From a virus: 24,769 bases of DNA. The notes beneath the pieces are model-generated. The model searched no databases. It saw nothing but the letters and a program-made list of their open reading frames with translations, and was not told where the DNA came from. A program made the translations under genes and the position numbers. Shown here piece after piece: positions 14,689 to 24,613 of the stretch (the first letter of the stretch is position 1; each line of letters starts with the position of its first letter). The stretch covers positions 1-24,769 of IMG/VR virus record IMGVR_UViG_3300025646_000345; one strand, written 5' to 3'.

Positions 14689-15624
14689 TCAAGTGTACAC
14701 CAGGCTGAACTCGTCGTTACCGGCAGTGGAAGGAATCGCGGTGTAGGGGATGTTCAGCATTGCGATGCCATCCTGATCACCGTAAGACACGTCGCCAATA
14801 TCGACCCGAGTGGATGCGAAATCAACGATGTTGCCAGCGGTGGTGCCGTGCTGGAACGTCAGGTTGCCCAAGGTTCCATCGGTAAGCGCAGCAGCGAAAT
14901 AATCCTTCTGCGCAATAGTCGGGGCTTCAACCACCACAGTGCCACTGCTGCTGCGATCAGTGATCAGCACCTCCTTGGTGCAACCAATCAACTCGCGATA
15001 GACCAGAGTGTTGCCCAGGTCAAGACTGACTGACTGAAGGCAGCCAGAATACGACAGCAGAGAGAAGGTGTCAGTATTGCCGTTTTTGAAGACCAGCGGC
15101 GTAGCCTGGTTCGCATAGGTCACGCTAGGCAGTGCCGAATCATCAGGAGCGTTGTAGATGCCAGTGAAGGTGAAATCAATCGTCGGGATCTCGCCCACGT
15201 TGGCATTCAGCGTGAAAGTACCGCGAGCGCCAGTCACCTTATGGCGAACACCATCAATGTTGTAGTGGATGGTGACAGAACCGAAGCTTGCAGACACAGG
15301 TGCGTAAGTCACGCTAACGCCAGCAGAAACAGTCTCGCTCAGGCCACAAGCCTGAAGAGCCTTGCCATACTGCGGCGCAGTACCAGCAGCGCCAGAGCCA
15401 GCAAGCTCAACACTAAAAGTACACTCAACACGAGTGTTGGCGAGAAGCTGCTCTGAAGCACCCAAATAAGGGCGGATCAGATCGCGGCTAACGACATCAC
15501 TCTGCTGTGGAGTAATGTTCAGATCCCTCACTAGAACGGCGTCCGCTCCGTCGGGAGTCGGATCTGTTCCGTAGGTTGATTCCGTCTCGACCAGAATCAG
15601 TCGTTTCCGAAGAAGAAGTGCCAT
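14689..15624 (-). CDS. V: Major tail tube protein
   Basis: This 311-residue protein is predicted to polymerise into the tail tube. The N-terminus (MALLLRKRLILVETESTYGT, then a D-rich PTPDGADAVLVRDL) is typical of long phage tube proteins with an N-terminal arm. The rest is beta-rich with frequent Thr/Ser/Gly (PTIDFTFTGIY; VVVEAPTIAQKDYFAAALTD). It lies between the tail terminator and the G chaperone, the lambda V position, and is followed by a strong intrinsic terminator, consistent with high expression. It is longer than lambda gpV (246). The start at 15624 has no clear Shine-Dalgarno, odd for an abundant protein; initiation may depend on the small ORF that overlaps it. The symbol marks functional position, not close sequence identity. 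Confidence 0.87.
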   Translation of the reverse strand: MALLLRKRLILVETESTYGTDPTPDGADAVLVRDLNITPQQSDVVSRDLIRPYLGASEQLLANTRVECTFSVELAGSGAAGTAPQYGKALQACGLSETVSAGVSVTYAPVSASFGSVTIHYNIDGVRHKVTGARGTFTLNANVGEIPTIDFTFTGIYNAPDDSALPSVTYANQATPLVFKNGNTDTFSLLSYSGCLQSVSLDLGNTLVYRELIGCTKEVLITDRSSSGTVVVEAPTIAQKDYFAAALTDGTLGNLTFQHGTTAGNIVDFASTRVDIGDVSYGDQDGIAMLNIPYTAIPSTAGNDEFSLVYT

Positions 15625-15755: not shown

Positions 15756-16184
15756 TTACTCGGTGGTCAAGTCTGCAACTGCAGTTCTATATTTCACATC
15801 GTATTCGTTAGCGAACACGCCCGCAGGCTGATCGGCGTCGAGGAACTCGAATGTCGTAAGCACCGGTTGCACGTCAATTGCATAACCACCAAGCGTCAGA
15901 TCTGCCATCAGCTTTGAGTGCATTGATTCAATGATCGAATCGGCGTCCGTGTCAGGCGCACCTGATCTCACCACAACAACGATCCTCACGCGCATAGTCC
16001 AATCAAGCTTCGGTAACGAAGTGAACTGCTGCGCCGTATCGGTAACAGGCTCGATGATGATCATCGGGCTTTCGGCCCTCGCAACCGCAGTCACCCTCGA
16101 CCGATACACCCGACCGCTCACGCCAGCAGTACTTGCAAGCGTACTAGCAATCTGAGCAAGGATCTGTTCGCGTTTAGTAGTCAT
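15756..16184 (-). CDS. U: Tail terminator / tail completion protein (gpU-like)
   Basis: This 142-residue protein overlaps the upstream gene as TGATG. It begins KREQILAQIASTL and has VYRSRVTAV, an ESPMIIIEPV strand and a central TMRVRIVVVVRSG strand. After a helix with DADSIIESMHSKLM comes LGGYAIDV and a closing strand. This alpha/beta pattern and its place before the tail tube gene fit phage tail terminator proteins, which cap the tube and join it to the head. Lambda gpU (131 residues) does this job. The call rests on pattern and position because the family diverges strongly. Confidence 0.72.
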   Translation of the reverse strand: MTTKREQILAQIASTLASTAGVSGRVYRSRVTAVARAESPMIIIEPVTDTAQQFTSLPKLDWTMRVRIVVVVRSGAPDTDADSIIESMHSKLMADLTLGGYAIDVQPVLTTFEFLDADQPAGVFANEYDVKYRTAVADLTTE

Positions 16185-17488: not shown

Positions 17489-20104
17489 TCAGGTTCCGAA
17501 GCAGAAGGCGCCAGGCTGCTTGACGGCGAAGTCAACGTCTTGCAGAGCAATGACGCGGACGGTGCCAGCAGTAGCACCAGCGTAAGGATCCACAGTCAGA
17601 TCCAGGCCGGACCACATGCCCATGATCATCATGGAGAAGTCGCCGAACAGCGCATCGTTGTTCTGCAGTTGGTTGGACACGATCACGGGATAACCGTTGA
17701 TCTCGTCATCCATGAACACGAACTGAGCAGTGTTCGTGGCCTTCTCGGTGGACTTCAGGGCGCCACGTGCAGCAGCGTTGATGATGTAACGCAGGCTGCC
17801 AGCATCGGCGTTAGCAGAAGCAACATCGGTCTCCATGCCGATGTACTCCTCGAAGGTGCCGAAAGTGGTGATGGTCTGGGAACCAATGCCGGTGGTATTG
17901 GTCAGGCCCAGGGGCTGGTTGCTGGAGCCGGTGCCGTAGATAGCAGCGCGATCAATTTCCAGCGCAATCACACGAGCCAGGTCGTTACGGACCATGCCCT
18001 CAACATCGATGCTGCTCTGGAGCAGAAGACGACGGCTGTAGTCCACATAAGCACCCACGGTCTTGGGAGTCATGTTGACTTGATCAACAGCCTGCTGGCT
18101 CTCGGTCGGAGCAGAATTTTCGCCGACCCAGTACGCCGTGCTTGCGCTCGACTGTCGAGGAATGCTGATGTTGCCCTGCAGGCCGCTCAGCATGGTCACA
18201 CCAGCTTGAGCGAAGGCGAGGCGGTTACGCAGCAGTTCGATGAAGGAGCCAGCAAGCAGCTCATCATCAACAAGGTTGCCACCGGCAGAAGGAGTGCCGA
18301 CAACCAGATCACGACGCAGCACTTCGTTCGGCACCACAATGCCGTTAGAAGAACGCTCGTACTTGTCAGCAGCAGCTTTGCCGACTTCAATTTCAAACTC
18401 AGCTTCACGACGAGCCTGAGCGTCACCCTGGTTGGCCAGGAAGTTCAGAGCTTTGACGAAGCTAAATTGACGGGTCTCCTTTTCGGAGAGGCCAAGATCG
18501 TTGGCGTCGATGCGGTGTTCCACAGGTTGGGTGCCGATTTTTTCGAGGACAGCAGCACGAGCTTCATCAACAGACTTGCCGCCGTCGATCAGTTCACGTG
18601 CCAGTTCGGGGAGCTTATGACGCTCACCCAGTTTGTTGATGGCGGCGATACGGTTGCGCTCGGCCTCGACGGCCTCGGACCGGATCACCTCCAGGTCAGG
18701 AGTGTTGTCCATGACAGGTTCAGTCACAGGGTTTACAGGAGATGCGGCCGGGGCCGCTTGCTCGGTTTCGGTATCGTCCAATGAACGACCGACGCCGACA
18801 GTGGGATCAGCCGGAATGCTGACCACACTGACCTCGAAAGGCGACCATTGGGTCGCTACGAAGTCATTTTCGCGTTCCTCCATCTTATCAATGGAGTACC
18901 CGAATGAAACGCCACGAAGAATTCCGTCGCGTACATCTGCAAGCACCTCTTGTGCTTGCTTATTGCGCGAAAAGCGCACAATGACGTAACCGCGTTTCTT
19001 TTCACCATCGATCCATGCACACTCGACAACGCCGATAATGCGATCAGGATCGTGGTTGAACAACAACGGTGCGCCGTCATTCAGCCGCTCAAGATTGGCG
19101 GCTTCCATCTCGTGGCTCAAAATCTCGTTTCCGAAGTAACGAGCCACGGGATATTCAGAACTAAACGGAAACTCAATTGTCCGCTCATTCAGCATGTTGA
19201 AACTTGTTGTTTCAACACGCTTAAATTTCGCTCCCTCAAGGTCGCGAACATTCACTCCTTCCATTTCGCGTAGTGCTTCGATCTTTGTCAGTGTACTGAA
19301 TCGATGTCCAACCATCGTTTCAGTAGCCTCCCATCCATCGTCACCGGGACGATAAATACGAATCAACGCTGCAGGGTCTTCTGCGGTTGCATTGATGCTG
19401 AATTCTGAATCAGGTACTCCAAGTGTTCCTTCGCGCATAATGTGCTCAATTCGACCACGGGCGCGACCGCCGGAGCTATTCCAGCTAACAAAATCGCCTT
19501 CTTTCAGTTCATCAGGCTTAGCGCGATCACCCGTAGCTTCTTCAAATTCCATCACCTCATAGTCGCGTTCATCCAGCCATGCACGCGCCTCAGCGGCAGT
19601 GAACTTAGACAGCCGGAATCGAATCGCCTGTAGCTCGGCACCGTCTTCGCCTTCCTTGATTCCAAAGATGAAGTCAACGCCATCACCACCGCCATCATTC
19701 CGACGACGGAAGCTGTCATATTGATCAGGATCACGCAAGCGAGCAGCGTGCTCGTTCGGATATGGGCGATCACCATCGCCAATCACCATTGCACGATCCA
19801 TTTTCTCGACCAAACCATCAGACCAGCTTTTACCTGCATCACCACCCCAAGCAGCCCATGCAACGCGACCGGGTGACGGATAGCCATCTTCACCAACCTT
19901 GAACCCTTCCGCTTGCTTGTCCACTTCATGACGCGCAAACCATGCGCTCATCGTCACGATCGTCTCATCGCTCAGCTCATCGCCACTGAGAATCTGACTT
20001 GCACGACGAGCAGCAACCTCAGTGCCGCCGTCATATCCTTCCTCTTTCCATGCGCGGTAACGGCGAGCTTCCTCGCGCATCCCCTCGGTCGGCATAGCAG
20101 GCAT
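17489..20104 (-). CDS. HK97-type prohead protease fused to major capsid protein, with extra N-terminal domains
   Basis: One 871-residue frame encodes the maturation protease and shell protein together. Residues 1-105 contain a domain with GYPSPGRVAWAAWGGDAGKSW. About 114-190 holds YPNEHAARLRDPDQYDSFRR and an IRF..SKFTAAEARAWL motif. About 196-255 is tudor-like (LKEGDFVSWNSSGGRARGRI). The HK97-type serine protease lies at about 302-440, with His351 in LLFNHDPDRI, Ser400 in RGVSFGYS and Glu424 in SPFEVSVVSIPADP as the likely triad. A linker and helical delta-like region follow (about 445-590). The HK97-fold capsid domain covers about 600-871 (IPRQSSASTAYWVGE; EIDRAAIYGTGSSNQPLGLT). It overlaps the portal stop as TAATG. 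No scaffold gene is visible, and the delta-like region may serve. Self-cleavage must release the shell domain (inference). Confidence 0.94.
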   Translation of the reverse strand: MPAMPTEGMREEARRYRAWKEEGYDGGTEVAARRASQILSGDELSDETIVTMSAWFARHEVDKQAEGFKVGEDGYPSPGRVAWAAWGGDAGKSWSDGLVEKMDRAMVIGDGDRPYPNEHAARLRDPDQYDSFRRRNDGGGDGVDFIFGIKEGEDGAELQAIRFRLSKFTAAEARAWLDERDYEVMEFEEATGDRAKPDELKEGDFVSWNSSGGRARGRIEHIMREGTLGVPDSEFSINATAEDPAALIRIYRPGDDGWEATETMVGHRFSTLTKIEALREMEGVNVRDLEGAKFKRVETTSFNMLNERTIEFPFSSEYPVARYFGNEILSHEMEAANLERLNDGAPLLFNHDPDRIIGVVECAWIDGEKKRGYVIVRFSRNKQAQEVLADVRDGILRGVSFGYSIDKMEERENDFVATQWSPFEVSVVSIPADPTVGVGRSLDDTETEQAAPAASPVNPVTEPVMDNTPDLEVIRSEAVEAERNRIAAINKLGERHKLPELARELIDGGKSVDEARAAVLEKIGTQPVEHRIDANDLGLSEKETRQFSFVKALNFLANQGDAQARREAEFEIEVGKAAADKYERSSNGIVVPNEVLRRDLVVGTPSAGGNLVDDELLAGSFIELLRNRLAFAQAGVTMLSGLQGNISIPRQSSASTAYWVGENSAPTESQQAVDQVNMTPKTVGAYVDYSRRLLLQSSIDVEGMVRNDLARVIALEIDRAAIYGTGSSNQPLGLTNTTGIGSQTITTFGTFEEYIGMETDVASANADAGSLRYIINAAARGALKSTEKATNTAQFVFMDDEINGYPVIVSNQLQNNDALFGDFSMMIMGMWSGLDLTVDPYAGATAGTVRVIALQDVDFAVKQPGAFCFGT

Positions 20105-21588
20105 TACTCAATAACCTCCTGGGTTGGTTCGATGATGTCGCGATCAAGCTCAACACTAAGGTCAACCGCTGCTTGCTGCTCCCTTGCCAACTCAGTCAAG
20201 TTGTCATAGAAGTCTCCGCCTAGTTTCGCAACGATTTGCGATTTTGTCATGTATCCTGCCTGCTCCATTTCGCGATAAGCCTTAGCTTCCTTCAACGGAT
20301 CGACCCAATCCCAACCGCGAGCCATCCATCTTGGTGTGTCATAACGCTCAGGACGTGCGTCATAGTCATCAAACGGCAGCTCACCGGCCAGCACAGCCAG
20401 ATTCAGCCACTCGCGGAATACCCGCATGTGGAAGTGCTCAATCATGTACGACTGCACCACCTTCCAGTGCTCGCGATCCTCAAGCAGACTCAGCCGTGAA
20501 CTGCTGTAGTTGGCTTCCGAAAAATCACGACTCAGGGTTTCGTAGCTACAACCAAAACCACTCGCAAACCTGCGCACCTTGTTGCGCACAAACATCTCAA
20601 ACTGCTGATCTGGTGAATCAATGTCCGGCACCGTTACGTTCTGGCCGGGCTCCAAATACTTGAACATCCCAGGCTCGAACTCACTGATCCTGCGCTCTGC
20701 ATCAACATCATCACCGTCAAGCTCACCTTCGGATGACGTGACGAATCCCATGATCGATGCACCTGCACGCGCACGGATCACGGCAGCTTCCTCATAACCC
20801 TGAAGCTGATGCGCGTCTGCCATCACTGGATGGAACCACGGCACACCGCGATGTTGCTGCGGACGCTCGGGGATAAACAGATGAATCACATCCTCAGCAG
20901 GCAGGAATACATGCTTCCCACCTTTCTCGGGCGCATTCTGGAACCAATAGTCGCCTGGATGCCGCGTCAAGAATGCGTACCGCACTGGGCGGCCCCATTC
21001 ATTGATCTCCACACCCATCCGCCATTCATTCCCCTTGGCGAGGGTTGGTCCCTGATACTCCTCATCCAAGACATCGGCTTCAAGCATCTCAAGCGCCAAT
21101 GGCACTCGGCTGCCACCAAACGGACGGCGGATAATCCTGAAAAGCGCTTCGCCAGACTCGGGTAATGCACCAACAGCCAACCACTCCATCATGTGGAAAC
21201 TATGCCGACCAGCAACATCACAATGCTGCGCTCGGCACCACATATTCCATTTCTGTTCAATCAGGCGGTTGACCTGCTCATTCGGCTTCCGCGTCCGAAC
21301 CTGCTGCACCTGAGACTGCAGCTTGATACCCGATCCAACAACATTGATCTGCGTCGTACGCTTCGCCTGCTTGGCGTACGGATTATTCCGCACCATTTCG
21401 CGGCTGCGATCACGCAGTTTCCGCAAACTGGTCCGAATCTCAGCATCAGCACTCGCCTGTGATGACATCCAGTCATTCGTCAGGCGCGAAATCATTGCAC
21501 CCGCATAAGCACGCCGACGACGACGTGGCTCCTCACGCGGAATTGGCTGTAGCCCAAATCGCCGTAGCAGTCTTGTGCGGAATCCCAT
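20104..21588 (-). CDS. B: Portal protein, lambda gpB-like
   Basis: This 494-residue protein forms the dodecameric portal at the capsid vertex through which DNA is packaged. It matches the lambda gpB-type family (lambda 533 residues). The N-terminus is strongly basic (RRRRRAYAGAMISRLTNDW). A conserved segment follows, SREMVRNNPYAKQAKRTTQ and INVVGSGIKLQSQ, then GEALFRIIRRPFGG and the HLFIPERPQQHRGVPWFHPV wing region. A clip/stem region carries FASGFGCSYETLSRDFSEANYSS. It starts with a TGATG overlap from the gpW-like gene and ends in the start of the capsid fusion. In lambda part of gpB is cleaved by gpC; there is no separate gpC here, so any trimming would fall to the fused protease. Confidence 0.95.
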   Translation of the reverse strand: MGFRTRLLRRFGLQPIPREEPRRRRRAYAGAMISRLTNDWMSSQASADAEIRTSLRKLRDRSREMVRNNPYAKQAKRTTQINVVGSGIKLQSQVQQVRTRKPNEQVNRLIEQKWNMWCRAQHCDVAGRHSFHMMEWLAVGALPESGEALFRIIRRPFGGSRVPLALEMLEADVLDEEYQGPTLAKGNEWRMGVEINEWGRPVRYAFLTRHPGDYWFQNAPEKGGKHVFLPAEDVIHLFIPERPQQHRGVPWFHPVMADAHQLQGYEEAAVIRARAGASIMGFVTSSEGELDGDDVDAERRISEFEPGMFKYLEPGQNVTVPDIDSPDQQFEMFVRNKVRRFASGFGCSYETLSRDFSEANYSSSRLSLLEDREHWKVVQSYMIEHFHMRVFREWLNLAVLAGELPFDDYDARPERYDTPRWMARGWDWVDPLKEAKAYREMEQAGYMTKSQIVAKLGGDFYDNLTELAREQQAAVDLSVELDRDIIEPTQEVIE

Positions 21589-22175
21589 CAGCCTTGGTTA
21601 AACCGGACGTAAAGGTTATGCGGATCGCCGAGACCAGAAGCAATCAGTTTTGCCTTGTTCTCTTTCGCCACAACTGACTTTAGCCTTGATTCAAGCTCGA
21701 TCAACTCAGACAGGTCATATCGCTTCAGGTTTCTGTTGCCGATCCGATACTCGGAAACAGCACCGCCACTAATCAAGCTGCGAATCGCAGTTTGCACTGC
21801 ATCCAAATCCTGCTGCGCTTGCGTGCGGCCATCGAATGCGCCAGGCGTACCTGAATACGCCAGCGATGCCTTCACCTCAATCTGGCCGCGACTATATTCC
21901 TGCGTTGCGCCATCACTAATCGCAGTTGCAACAGCTTGGAAGTACCAGTCAGTGCTGGCATCCATCGTTGTCGTCACCGCAGCCGACAACGTGGTTTTCC
22001 AGCCGCTGTTATACGCAACCGCAACTGCAGTCACGCCCTCGCCAACAGTATTCAGCCTGAAGTAATAAGTAAGCGTATGCGTAGCACTCGTTACTGCATT
22101 GCCAAATACATCAACGGTCTCGACATCAGTCCAAACCGCATCCACGCCACTTGTTATGGACGGTGGGATTGACAT
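21588..22175 (-). CDS. gpW-like head-tail joining protein with N-terminal beta domain
   Basis: I choose the ATG at 22175, which has AGGTG 12 bases upstream; a GTG at 22190 would fall on that Shine-Dalgarno. The 195-residue product has two parts. Residues ~1-110 are beta-rich (THTLTYYFRLNTVGEG; STDWYFQAVATAISDG; RGQIEVKASLAY). Residues ~120-195 look like lambda gpW: AQQDLDAVQTAIRSLISGGA, a short NRNLKRYDLSELIELESRL helix-turn, and a LGDPHNLYVRFN ending. gpW itself has 68 residues and sits in the same place between large terminase and portal. In lambda it helps seal the filled head. The extra domain may contact portal or DNA; its function is unknown. Confidence 0.78.
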   Translation of the reverse strand: MSIPPSITSGVDAVWTDVETVDVFGNAVTSATHTLTYYFRLNTVGEGVTAVAVAYNSGWKTTLSAAVTTTMDASTDWYFQAVATAISDGATQEYSRGQIEVKASLAYSGTPGAFDGRTQAQQDLDAVQTAIRSLISGGAVSEYRIGNRNLKRYDLSELIELESRLKSVVAKENKAKLIASGLGDPHNLYVRFNQG

Positions 22176-22212
22176 CGACGAAAATATCACCTGATACGCC
22201 GAAGTCTAGCTC

Positions 22213-24066
22213 CTACCACTGTTTTATGAAACTCCTCCCGCTACGCGGTACAGCAGCAGACGCACGCTTGGATTTTCGCTCCTCCGGCGGCTTCTCCATC
22301 TGATCCCACAGTGTTCGGCGATCCTTCACCTGATACACCCGATTCAACGCCGCGTAGGCATACACCAGTTCGTCAAGCGCTTCGTTCCTTGCGCTACTCT
22401 TCTTCACCCACACACGCTCGGGGAAGCCATTCCTGAAGCGCATGATCTGCTTCTCTGCCGTCAGCTCTTGGAAGTAGTCCTCCCCAACCGTTGGATAGAA
22501 ATGCAAATATCCCGCACCAGGCTCGTTGTGCTTCAACCGCCCAAACAACAATGATTTCACGGTGTCCGAACCAACCGGAAATACCTGAGCACCTTTCTTC
22601 AACGTCTTTCCCTTTGCATTTAGGTCCACCTTGCTCGCCTTACCGATTGGTGGCTTGTTCTTCTGCGACATACCCTTAATCGCAATCACACCCATGCTCT
22701 GGCGTTCTCTTGCGTACTGATACACATCAGCGGTGTGGTGGCCGCCGGAGTCAATCGCAGTCACCATCGGCGTCAGCTTTCGATCGCCATCACCCTCGTA
22801 TGGCGCCTGCAAAATCTCATCCAACTGCTTCCACACATCCGGCCTGCTCGGATCGCCGTAAATCTTCACGCGATCAATTAGCCACCCTTCTTCTTCGCGG
22901 CCCCATCCCCACACACTCAAGCTGAGTCGATCGTCCTGCACGTCACAACCAATCGTCAGCAGCAGTGCTTCACTCGGCACTTGGCGATGCTGATACTCCT
23001 CAGATGCCGCACGCTCACCCAAGGCATCCGCACCAACCTTCGACGCATACTCGTCCTCCCATGTCTCACCAAGCACCGTGTTGACAAACGTCTTCAACTG
23101 CTCCGCATCATTCTTCGCATCAAGGAATTCCTCGACCAAGTTTTGCCATGTTGCATTCGGGCTATAGCTATACGCCGCCCAAATATGAAACGACACATGC
23201 TTACCATTACCAGGCGCGGTGGGCCGCCACTCGCCGCGCTCCACCATCCAACGCTTCTTCGCTGCTGGGATCCACACGCCGCATCCCTCGCACGCATAGC
23301 TCGCAGTATCGGGATCGTTATCCAACCACTTCATATTTGCCCACTTCAAATACTGCATGTGCCCACAGTCAGGGCAAGGTACGAAATATCGCCGTTGATC
23401 GCCCTGATGAAACATCCGCTCCACACGGCTGAAATCTTTCACCGTTGGCGTTGATCCCGCCACGATCTTCCGGTTCCAGTAATACTCGGTTCGACGAATA
23501 CCAAGCTTGATCTGGTCGCCTTCAGTACCAGCCGAAGGTGGATAACCATCAATCTCGTCAAACAACACGACCCGGCGGCTAACACGACGGAAGCCACGTG
23601 GACTATTAGCACCAACCAAACTCAAGCTCCCGCCTGGGAACTGCTTCTGCAGAATTGTGTTCGCGCCATCCTTTGCTTTCGCTTCGCTCACCAAGCCACG
23701 CAAGCAAGGTGTATCTCGCAGCATCGGCGCAATTTCTTCCTTGGAGTAGCCCTGCGCATCCTCAATCGTGGGCTGCACGATCATGATCGGGCACGGATCC
23801 TGGTGCACGTGGTAAGCCGCAACGTGGTTCAAGATCTTCGAGTACCCAACACGGGCAGACTTCATCACCGTGATCTGCTCGATGGTCGGATCGGTGATAG
23901 CATCCATGATTCCCTTCTGATAAGGGAGCGTGTGCCATCTGCCGCCTTCTGCGCTTGACTCTGAACTCAAATACGCATAAGTATCGGCCCATTCGCTTAA
24001 AGTCATCTTTTTTGGCGGTTTAAATGCCAAAAATGCTGCTTTTTTGAGCTTCTGTATGTTATTCAT
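22213..24066 (-). CDS. A: Terminase large subunit, lambda gpA-like
   Basis: This is the motor and nuclease for DNA packaging. I choose the ATG at 24066, overlapping the small-subunit stop by eight bases, giving 617 residues (lambda gpA 641); a TTG at 24078 is a weaker choice. The ATPase has a Walker A-like KSARVGYSK (69-77), as in lambda gpA, and a Walker B VVLFDEIDGYP with Asp170/Glu171. A Cys4 pattern (CPDC at 231-234, CEGCG at 259-263) suggests a bound zinc. The nuclease half contains acidic residues at Asp375 (IGCDVQDDRL), Asp439 (TAIDSGG) and Asp565 (DELVYAYAA). The ATP-coupling and nuclease residues appear intact. The family favours cohesive-end (cos) packaging, though no cos site could be identified. 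Confidence 0.96.
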   Translation of the reverse strand: MNNIQKLKKAAFLAFKPPKKMTLSEWADTYAYLSSESSAEGGRWHTLPYQKGIMDAITDPTIEQITVMKSARVGYSKILNHVAAYHVHQDPCPIMIVQPTIEDAQGYSKEEIAPMLRDTPCLRGLVSEAKAKDGANTILQKQFPGGSLSLVGANSPRGFRRVSRRVVLFDEIDGYPPSAGTEGDQIKLGIRRTEYYWNRKIVAGSTPTVKDFSRVERMFHQGDQRRYFVPCPDCGHMQYLKWANMKWLDNDPDTASYACEGCGVWIPAAKKRWMVERGEWRPTAPGNGKHVSFHIWAAYSYSPNATWQNLVEEFLDAKNDAEQLKTFVNTVLGETWEDEYASKVGADALGERAASEEYQHRQVPSEALLLTIGCDVQDDRLSLSVWGWGREEEGWLIDRVKIYGDPSRPDVWKQLDEILQAPYEGDGDRKLTPMVTAIDSGGHHTADVYQYARERQSMGVIAIKGMSQKNKPPIGKASKVDLNAKGKTLKKGAQVFPVGSDTVKSLLFGRLKHNEPGAGYLHFYPTVGEDYFQELTAEKQIMRFRNGFPERVWVKKSSARNEALDELVYAYAALNRVYQVKDRRTLWDQMEKPPEERKSKRASAAVPRSGRSFIKQW

Positions 24067-24613
24067 CGTCAACAGCAAGGTCTTCTAAGGCTTCACGCAC
24101 AATATCATCCAACGCGCCAATCGCATCCGTGTCTAAGTCCGGTATCCGCTGTTTTGCCTTGGTCGGTATTCCCAACAGCTTGGTTCTTGCTCGGGTGATA
24201 ATCTCTACCCACTCATGTTCTACGTCTTCAGCCTTAACGAGCAAACCCTCTTTCTGTTGGCGCTCAAGCTCAAGCAGCTCTGCCTTCAAGTGTTCCGTTC
24301 TGGCGCGAGACTCGTCATAATCAGGGATCGCTTCACTTGTTTTGCTAATCCTTTCTTGCTCTTTCGGTGCCATTCGCTCCTCCTTGCTTCGTAGCGGCTT
24401 CTTGGCTCGGCCCTCGCCAGGTGGCTTTGGGCCCATTCCAATTCTGGTCTGGGTATTGCGAGCCCACTCCTCACGCATTGTCTCGCTATTCACTAACGGC
24501 TTGCCGTCCCGACCAGTAACAACAGAAAGGCGACCTGTTTTTACTGCGGCATATACAGCTTCGGCACTAACACCTAATGCGCGGGCCGCTTCTGCGCGTG
24601 TGATTAACGCCAT
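24059..24613 (-). CDS. nu1: Terminase small subunit, Nu1-like
   Basis: This 184-residue DNA-recognition subunit of the packaging enzyme has an N-terminal winged-helix/MerR-like domain (about 2-45: LITRAEAARALGVSAEAVYA, AVKTGRLSVV). A charged linker follows, then a coiled-coil helix rich in Glu/Lys (RARTEHLKAELLELERQQKE) and a C-terminal EWVEIITRARTKLLGIPTKA segment typical of Nu1-type proteins. Length matches lambda gpNu1 (181). An in-frame TGA lies 21 bases upstream of the ATG, so the start is unlikely to be further out. No good Shine-Dalgarno is visible. It is the first gene of the leftward cluster and its stop overlaps the large subunit start. Confidence 0.93.
   Translation of the reverse strand: MALITRAEAARALGVSAEAVYAAVKTGRLSVVTGRDGKPLVNSETMREEWARNTQTRIGMGPKPPGEGRAKKPLRSKEERMAPKEQERISKTSEAIPDYDESRARTEHLKAELLELERQQKEGLLVKAEDVEHEWVEIITRARTKLLGIPTKAKQRIPDLDTDAIGALDDIVREALEDLAVDDE

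Follow-up and report, generated by a model that had tools for sequence, protein, structure and literature searches.

A fused protease-capsid gene with a probable internal start for its scaffold-capsid part in a lambda-portal/HK97-type phage

The capsid gene at 17489-20104, on the minus strand of a 24,769-nucleotide stretch of viral DNA (the window; IMG/VR record IMGVR_UViG_3300025646_000345), is a genuine fusion of prohead protease, scaffold, and HK97-fold major capsid protein. It is probably a dual-start gene, encoding a minority protease-scaffold-shell chain and a majority chain resembling HK97 gp5 that assemble together. From start 1 (20104) would come the minority 871-residue chain, whose attached shell subunit would carry the S78 protease and optional modules into the prohead. 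Start 2 (Met465, 18712) would yield the majority 407-residue scaffold-capsid chain, the equivalent of HK97 gp5. Once long and short chains had co-assembled, the protease would cut near residue 607/608, the N-terminal remainder would be released, and about 264 residues would stay in the shell. Hundreds of such phage capsid genes look like 1:1 protease-capsid fusions and are annotated as a single major capsid protein of excessive length. Should the internal start prove real, each would be a pair of overlapping genes with a protease:capsid ratio like that of HK97, and stoichiometry and mass-spectrometry data for the family would have to be read differently.

The gene is a single open reading frame (ORF) of 871 codons, with no stop between the ATG at 20104 and the stop ending at 17489; the corresponding frame of the plus strand contains stops. 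The initial annotation had described an uninterrupted 871-codon frame encoding a four-part protein, and both descriptions hold, the frame lying on the minus strand and the parts being accessory modules, S78 protease, scaffold, and HK97-fold shell. The gene start overlaps the portal stop as TAATG and is preceded by the strongest Shine-Dalgarno (SD) sequence of the window. Gene order is lambda/HK97-like, with head-tail and tail genes downstream, and the dual-start reading probably concerns a head gene of a lambda-portal/HK97-type siphophage. The features are as follows.

24059-24613: small terminase-like protein, first in the order
22213-24078: GpA large terminase, second
21588-22190: head-tail joining protein, third
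20104-21588: lambda-family portal, fourth, followed by the fused capsid gene
20115..20120, minus strand: AGGAGG, SD of the gene's own start (anti-SD dG -11.0)
17489..20104, minus strand: the fused gene in full, 871 codons, running from optional N-terminal modules through S78 prohead protease and scaffold to the HK97-fold major capsid protein
19790..20104, minus strand: N1 module, residues 1-105, helical (PHROG 2859; occurs in many phage head proteins)
19529..19768, minus strand: second optional module, residues 113-192, alpha/beta, of lower confidence within the full-length model
19280..19498, minus strand: tudor-like beta module, residues 203-275 (PF11160 at 203-249)
18785..19192, minus strand: S78 prohead serine protease, residues 305-440 (H351/S400/E424)
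18713..18784, minus strand: linker, residues 441-464, disordered and rich in indels (alignment and model)
18710..18712, minus strand: ATG465, proposed internal start, without SD here; the equivalent ATG has an SD in most of the family
18683..18692, minus strand: GGAGGTGATC, 10 nt complementary to the 16S rRNA 3' end, about 20 nt downstream of ATG465
18284..18712, minus strand: helical scaffold (delta-like) domain, residues 465-607, with high-expression codon usage
17489..18283, minus strand: mature HK97-fold shell protein, residues 608-871 plus stop, N-terminus set by homology to R4C 8gta

Pfam matches bear out three elements read earlier from the sequence: the tudor-like segment (Hva1_TUDOR, 203-249, 1.1e-5), the protease triad His351/Ser400/Glu424 (Peptidase_S78, 333-439, 1.4e-10), and a complete HK97-fold shell domain (Phage_capsid, 608-870, 3e-44). 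The triad is identical in 83/83 sequences of the first alignment; across the wider family set, H351 and E424 are invariant and S400 nearly so. The shell part matches the virion structure of Dinoroseobacter phage R4C (PDB 8gta) at 2e-52 by sequence and 5e-21 by Foldseek, which also matched HK97 proheads. Structure models had good local confidence and low overall confidence (pTM 0.40 and 0.43), and domain packing was left uninterpreted.

The R4C structure locates the mature shell. Its shell chain (8gta_A, 268 aa) starts at GGVLV, position 362 in the R4C fusion of 629 aa, although the deposited chain may start slightly downstream of the true N terminus; R4C protease and scaffold are missing from it. 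The aligned position here is residue 608 (PSA/GGNLV). By homology to R4C, the scaffold of this phage would likewise be removed by proteolysis.

HK97 proheads contain 415 major capsid protein chains and about 60 proteases (PMC12749128). Faced with the 1:1 ratio of a fused gene, the initial annotation offered two ways out, departure of most protease domains after cleavage or correction by internal initiation, and we judge the problem well posed. In a true 1:1 polyprotein, each shell subunit would begin as a full-length chain and lose its protease, modules, and scaffold by cleavage during or after assembly; the cleaved parts would leave or be degraded, and the junction Met would be no start. We consider this unlikely, even though the gene has one strong SD at its own start and none at Met465, and R4C residues upstream of the shell are absent from the deposited chain. 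Crowding of the prohead interior argues against it: 415 full-length chains, each with 67.6 kDa ahead of the shell, would fill 76-118% of a T=7 prohead interior as bare protein volume, compared with roughly 20% for HK97, where inner radii of 190-220 A are our own assumption, scaled from the D3 prohead diameter (PMC12749128). Crowding would be more severe still for longer family members, in which as many as 815 residues precede the shell. The full-length chain is 96 kDa; the Met465 product, at 407 aa and a computed 43.8 kDa, is close to the 43-kDa HK97 major capsid protein gp5 (PMC12749128).

Family-wide sequence signals at the protease-scaffold junction carry the case for the second start. Grouping 354 core ORFs at 75% identity gave 102 clusters, and 101 of these have an in-frame ATG within 60 codons past the protease motif GxGR. 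The junction Met was defined as the first such ATG, a rule unbiased compared with taking the best of several Mets. Mean anti-SD energy at this ATG was -5.23 kcal/mol, versus -2.41 at 1319 other in-frame Mets. Synonymous shuffles of the same peptides gave -3.61 (200 shuffle means: standard deviation 0.23, minimum -4.16; Fisher p 1.4e-5), and out-of-frame ATGs within the same stretch gave -2.37 (p 3e-12), p values that are approximate because the clusters are incompletely independent. SD 4-mers peak at -15 to -9, reaching 0.23-0.30 per position at -14 to -11 versus 0.01-0.03 at other Mets. By the same measure, the known start of lambda Nu3 scores -6.4, and SD-preceded in-frame ATGs of this lambda C/Nu3 type occur in the wider family. 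Named cases are the junction starts of R4C (cggaggacgcaATG, a strong SD at -9.5), CRP-811 (taaggagaacactATG), and VP882 (agaggtgcagaaATG). Clusters with an SD lie on all deep branches, and much of the cyanophage-like clade to which the window belongs is among those poor in SD. A junction SD in most of the family argues against the 1:1 polyprotein.

Synonymous constraint is a second signal. Synonymous entropy is biased at variable positions; we used a pairwise synonymous test controlled for relatedness. Constraint at the internal Met was significant over 16 clusters (Fisher 5.6e-6), other Mets lying at a median percentile of 0.54, and was missing from a few clusters (L334, L090). In the window gene, with pair relatedness controlled, synonymous divergence relative to expectation is 1.0-1.4 across codons 1-440, drops to 0.74/0.41/0.54 in the stretch of codons 440-500, and averages roughly 0.85 beyond; the gene minimum lies 14 codons past Met465. 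The linker Met itself is present in every member of the window's 87-locus cluster. This constraint, too, counts against a 1:1 polyprotein. An RNA hairpin at the internal start found no backing, with no consistent fold (mean z about -1.4), and an Rfam search gave no match.

Codon usage provides the third signal. C-ending Phe, Tyr, Ile, and Asn codons are a common sign of high expression. Their share in the window gene stands at 0.42 across the N-terminal modules and protease, as in most window genes (0.29-0.49), and rises to 0.81 for the scaffold and 0.82 for the shell. The tail-tube and tail-terminator-like genes (14689-15624, 0.69; 15756-16184, 0.67) are closer to the capsid half than other window genes are. 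Across 99 clusters, the share in the shell exceeds that upstream by 0.13 (Wilcoxon 5e-13). The change point in the window gene (p 0.002) is best placed at residue 415, with a support interval of 395-474 that takes in Met465 and ends short of the mature shell. Among the 32 informative clusters, change points outside the window gene's cluster scatter, and change-point conclusions are drawn from the window gene and the pooled profile only. The step precedes the discarded scaffold, a further point against the 1:1 polyprotein. The codon contrast between HK97 gp4 and gp5 is small, which counts against a dual start.

In the window gene, ATG465 has an anti-SD dG of +0.4 kcal/mol and is not preceded by an SD of the lambda C/Nu3 type, just as the initial annotation had stated. 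This is weak counter-evidence and says little, because only 4 of the 18 gene starts examined in the window have a dG of -5 or below. The mRNA around Met465 is not unusually open, which also counts against a start there. The earlier leaning against internal initiation was not sustained: family SD signal, synonymous constraint, and codon usage point the opposite way, and we infer from them that Met465 initiates here despite having no SD, with the short form in the majority and both products co-assembling. Downstream, GGAGGTGATC is codon-fixed in the window's clade (87/87 at several codons), and no start codon follows it at a distance that would let it serve as an SD. It is conceivable, as a long shot, that this clade uses an SD-less internal start helped by the fixed 16S-complementary GGAGGTGATC at about +20 nt, which, if true, would be a mode of initiation undescribed for phage capsid genes.

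The junction signals might instead have other causes, such as a purine-rich linker, translational accuracy of the capsid, a recombination junction or other nucleotide element, with the Met a relic of an old fusion. The linker is fast-evolving, the window's clade is without an SD, and the N-terminal modules are shuffled, so the two gene halves may differ in history. We nevertheless find this reading improbable. The SD signal is spacing-specific and exceeds both synonymous shuffles and out-of-frame ATGs, and a relic Met would be unexpected in 101/102 divergent clusters. Selection for accuracy on the shell alone is disfavored because the discarded scaffold has the shell's codon usage.

The fusion itself is no rarity. 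Across 372 loci, the complete family ORFs number 325, and every one is a protease-capsid fusion; 357 ORFs at these loci contain both domains. The few single-domain ORFs run off contig ends; the one exception is phiPsal1, which has its capsid protein in a gene apart and was added to the set for a different purpose. A first IMG/VR scan gave 171 relatives, of which 80 were retained, all with an uninterrupted fusion. By tblastn, relatives occur in 133 phage records, the closest being S-CBS3 and S-CBS1, annotated plainly as major capsid protein. PHROG 617 matches residues 301-870 at 1.6e-162, and the window ORF joins S78 protease and HK97-fold major capsid protein without interruption, as that family does; the score against NCBIfam NF045541 was 183.7 bits, below the cutoff of 525 for the whole protein. 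An assembly error that removed a stop, which the initial annotation had named as fatal to its reading, or a pseudogene fusion can be dismissed, as the same uninterrupted frame is shared by 80 IMG/VR contigs and the isolates S-CBS1, S-CBS3, S-LBS1, CRP-811, and R4C, and we found no point in its support.

The 325 complete fused ORFs show eight combinations of N1, the second module, and the tudor module, and 127 of these ORFs have none of the three. On a 100-cluster tree, at least 11, 10, and 7 changes, respectively, are needed. N1 also stands N-terminal to separate prohead proteases in phiPsal1 (S78), DC31 (XkdF type), and Vibrio phage 1.013 (DUF2213-like region), and occurs in the HGTV-1 prohead protease, in the portal of HATV-3, and alone in S-CBS4. 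Because the combinations vary and N1 occurs in other head proteins, we regard these parts, on sequence grounds, as optional, shuffling head-morphogenesis modules, often beside prohead proteases. Structure prediction of residues 1-300, suggested earlier, yielded models of the modules and no significant solved-structure relative in the PDB (best E 0.02); matches in BFVD were phage prohead-protease and XkdF proteins. Of the two roles first proposed for these domains, scaffold or cargo, that of scaffold is better assigned to residues 465-607. Some close relatives (loci L015, L035-L052, and L058-L071) have an added Cys-rich module of ~97 aa between residues equivalent to 103 and 113 (CANCAFYAGPRACEIVSGDI..GVCKFW), which resembles phage high-potential iron-sulfur-like proteins. 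In phage DSL-LC01 (L095), a gene annotated high-potential iron-sulfur-like adjoins the N1-bearing capsid protease.

Protease-capsid fusion was already known from PHROG 617, NF045541, S-CBS1/S-CBS3, and R4C, with ClpP-type analogues in Gifsy-2 and MD8. Both profiles have the window's domain order and family, with its N-terminal modules outside them. Full-length homologues at 48-53% identity are the 836-aa gp04 proteins, annotated "major capsid protein", of the Synechococcus phages S-CBS1 and S-CBS3. As in the window, a single gene following a lambda-like portal combines N1, the second module, the S78 protease, the scaffold, and the shell, with a junction Met and no SD; unlike the window gene, it has no tudor module. 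We found no published analysis of their fusion. R4C gp6, a protease-scaffold-capsid fusion with 39% identity over residues 306-870 and a virion structure (PMC10276861), differs in having a strong junction SD and no N-terminal modules; the text of the structure paper does not discuss the protease (PMC10276861). Arthrobacter phages provide additional examples of protease-capsid fusion (PMC5513430).

Independent fusions in Gifsy-2 (Effantin 2010, as cited in PMC8814770) and MD8 (open text of PMC8508860) also place protease, scaffold, and capsid protein in one gene, with a ClpP-type protease rather than the S78 type found here. The open text on this type does not discuss an internal start (PMC8508860). 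In the Gifsy-2 capsid gene (L372:22471-24561), M221 is an SD-preceded in-frame ATG (dG -8.8, the strongest in the gene) just past the protease, which suggests that this unrelated fusion likewise has two starts. None of the open-access papers searched described an internal start within a protease-capsid fusion gene.

Mu-type protease/scaffold genes have an in-frame internal start within the protease gene that gives a scaffold product, the more abundant assembly protein (PMC4378225). The dual-start layout proposed here differs from both Mu and lambda C/Nu3, where the internal product is scaffold only and the capsid protein has a separate gene. Lambda Nu3, the more abundant assembly protein, is made from an in-frame internal start inside protease gene C. 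The lambda C gene (L373:1619-2938) has a second in-frame ATG inside its Nu3 part, at codon 309, with a strong SD (-10.8). HK97 has the same protease and shell types as the window gene, with a scaffold (delta) domain ahead of the shell; unlike that gene, gp4 and gp5 are encoded separately, by two genes. The components are thus already known, and the new part, as far as the open literature searched goes, would be a combination in which the shell lies inside the internal product. The dual-start model would join an HK97-style scaffold-capsid protein to a lambda-style internal start.
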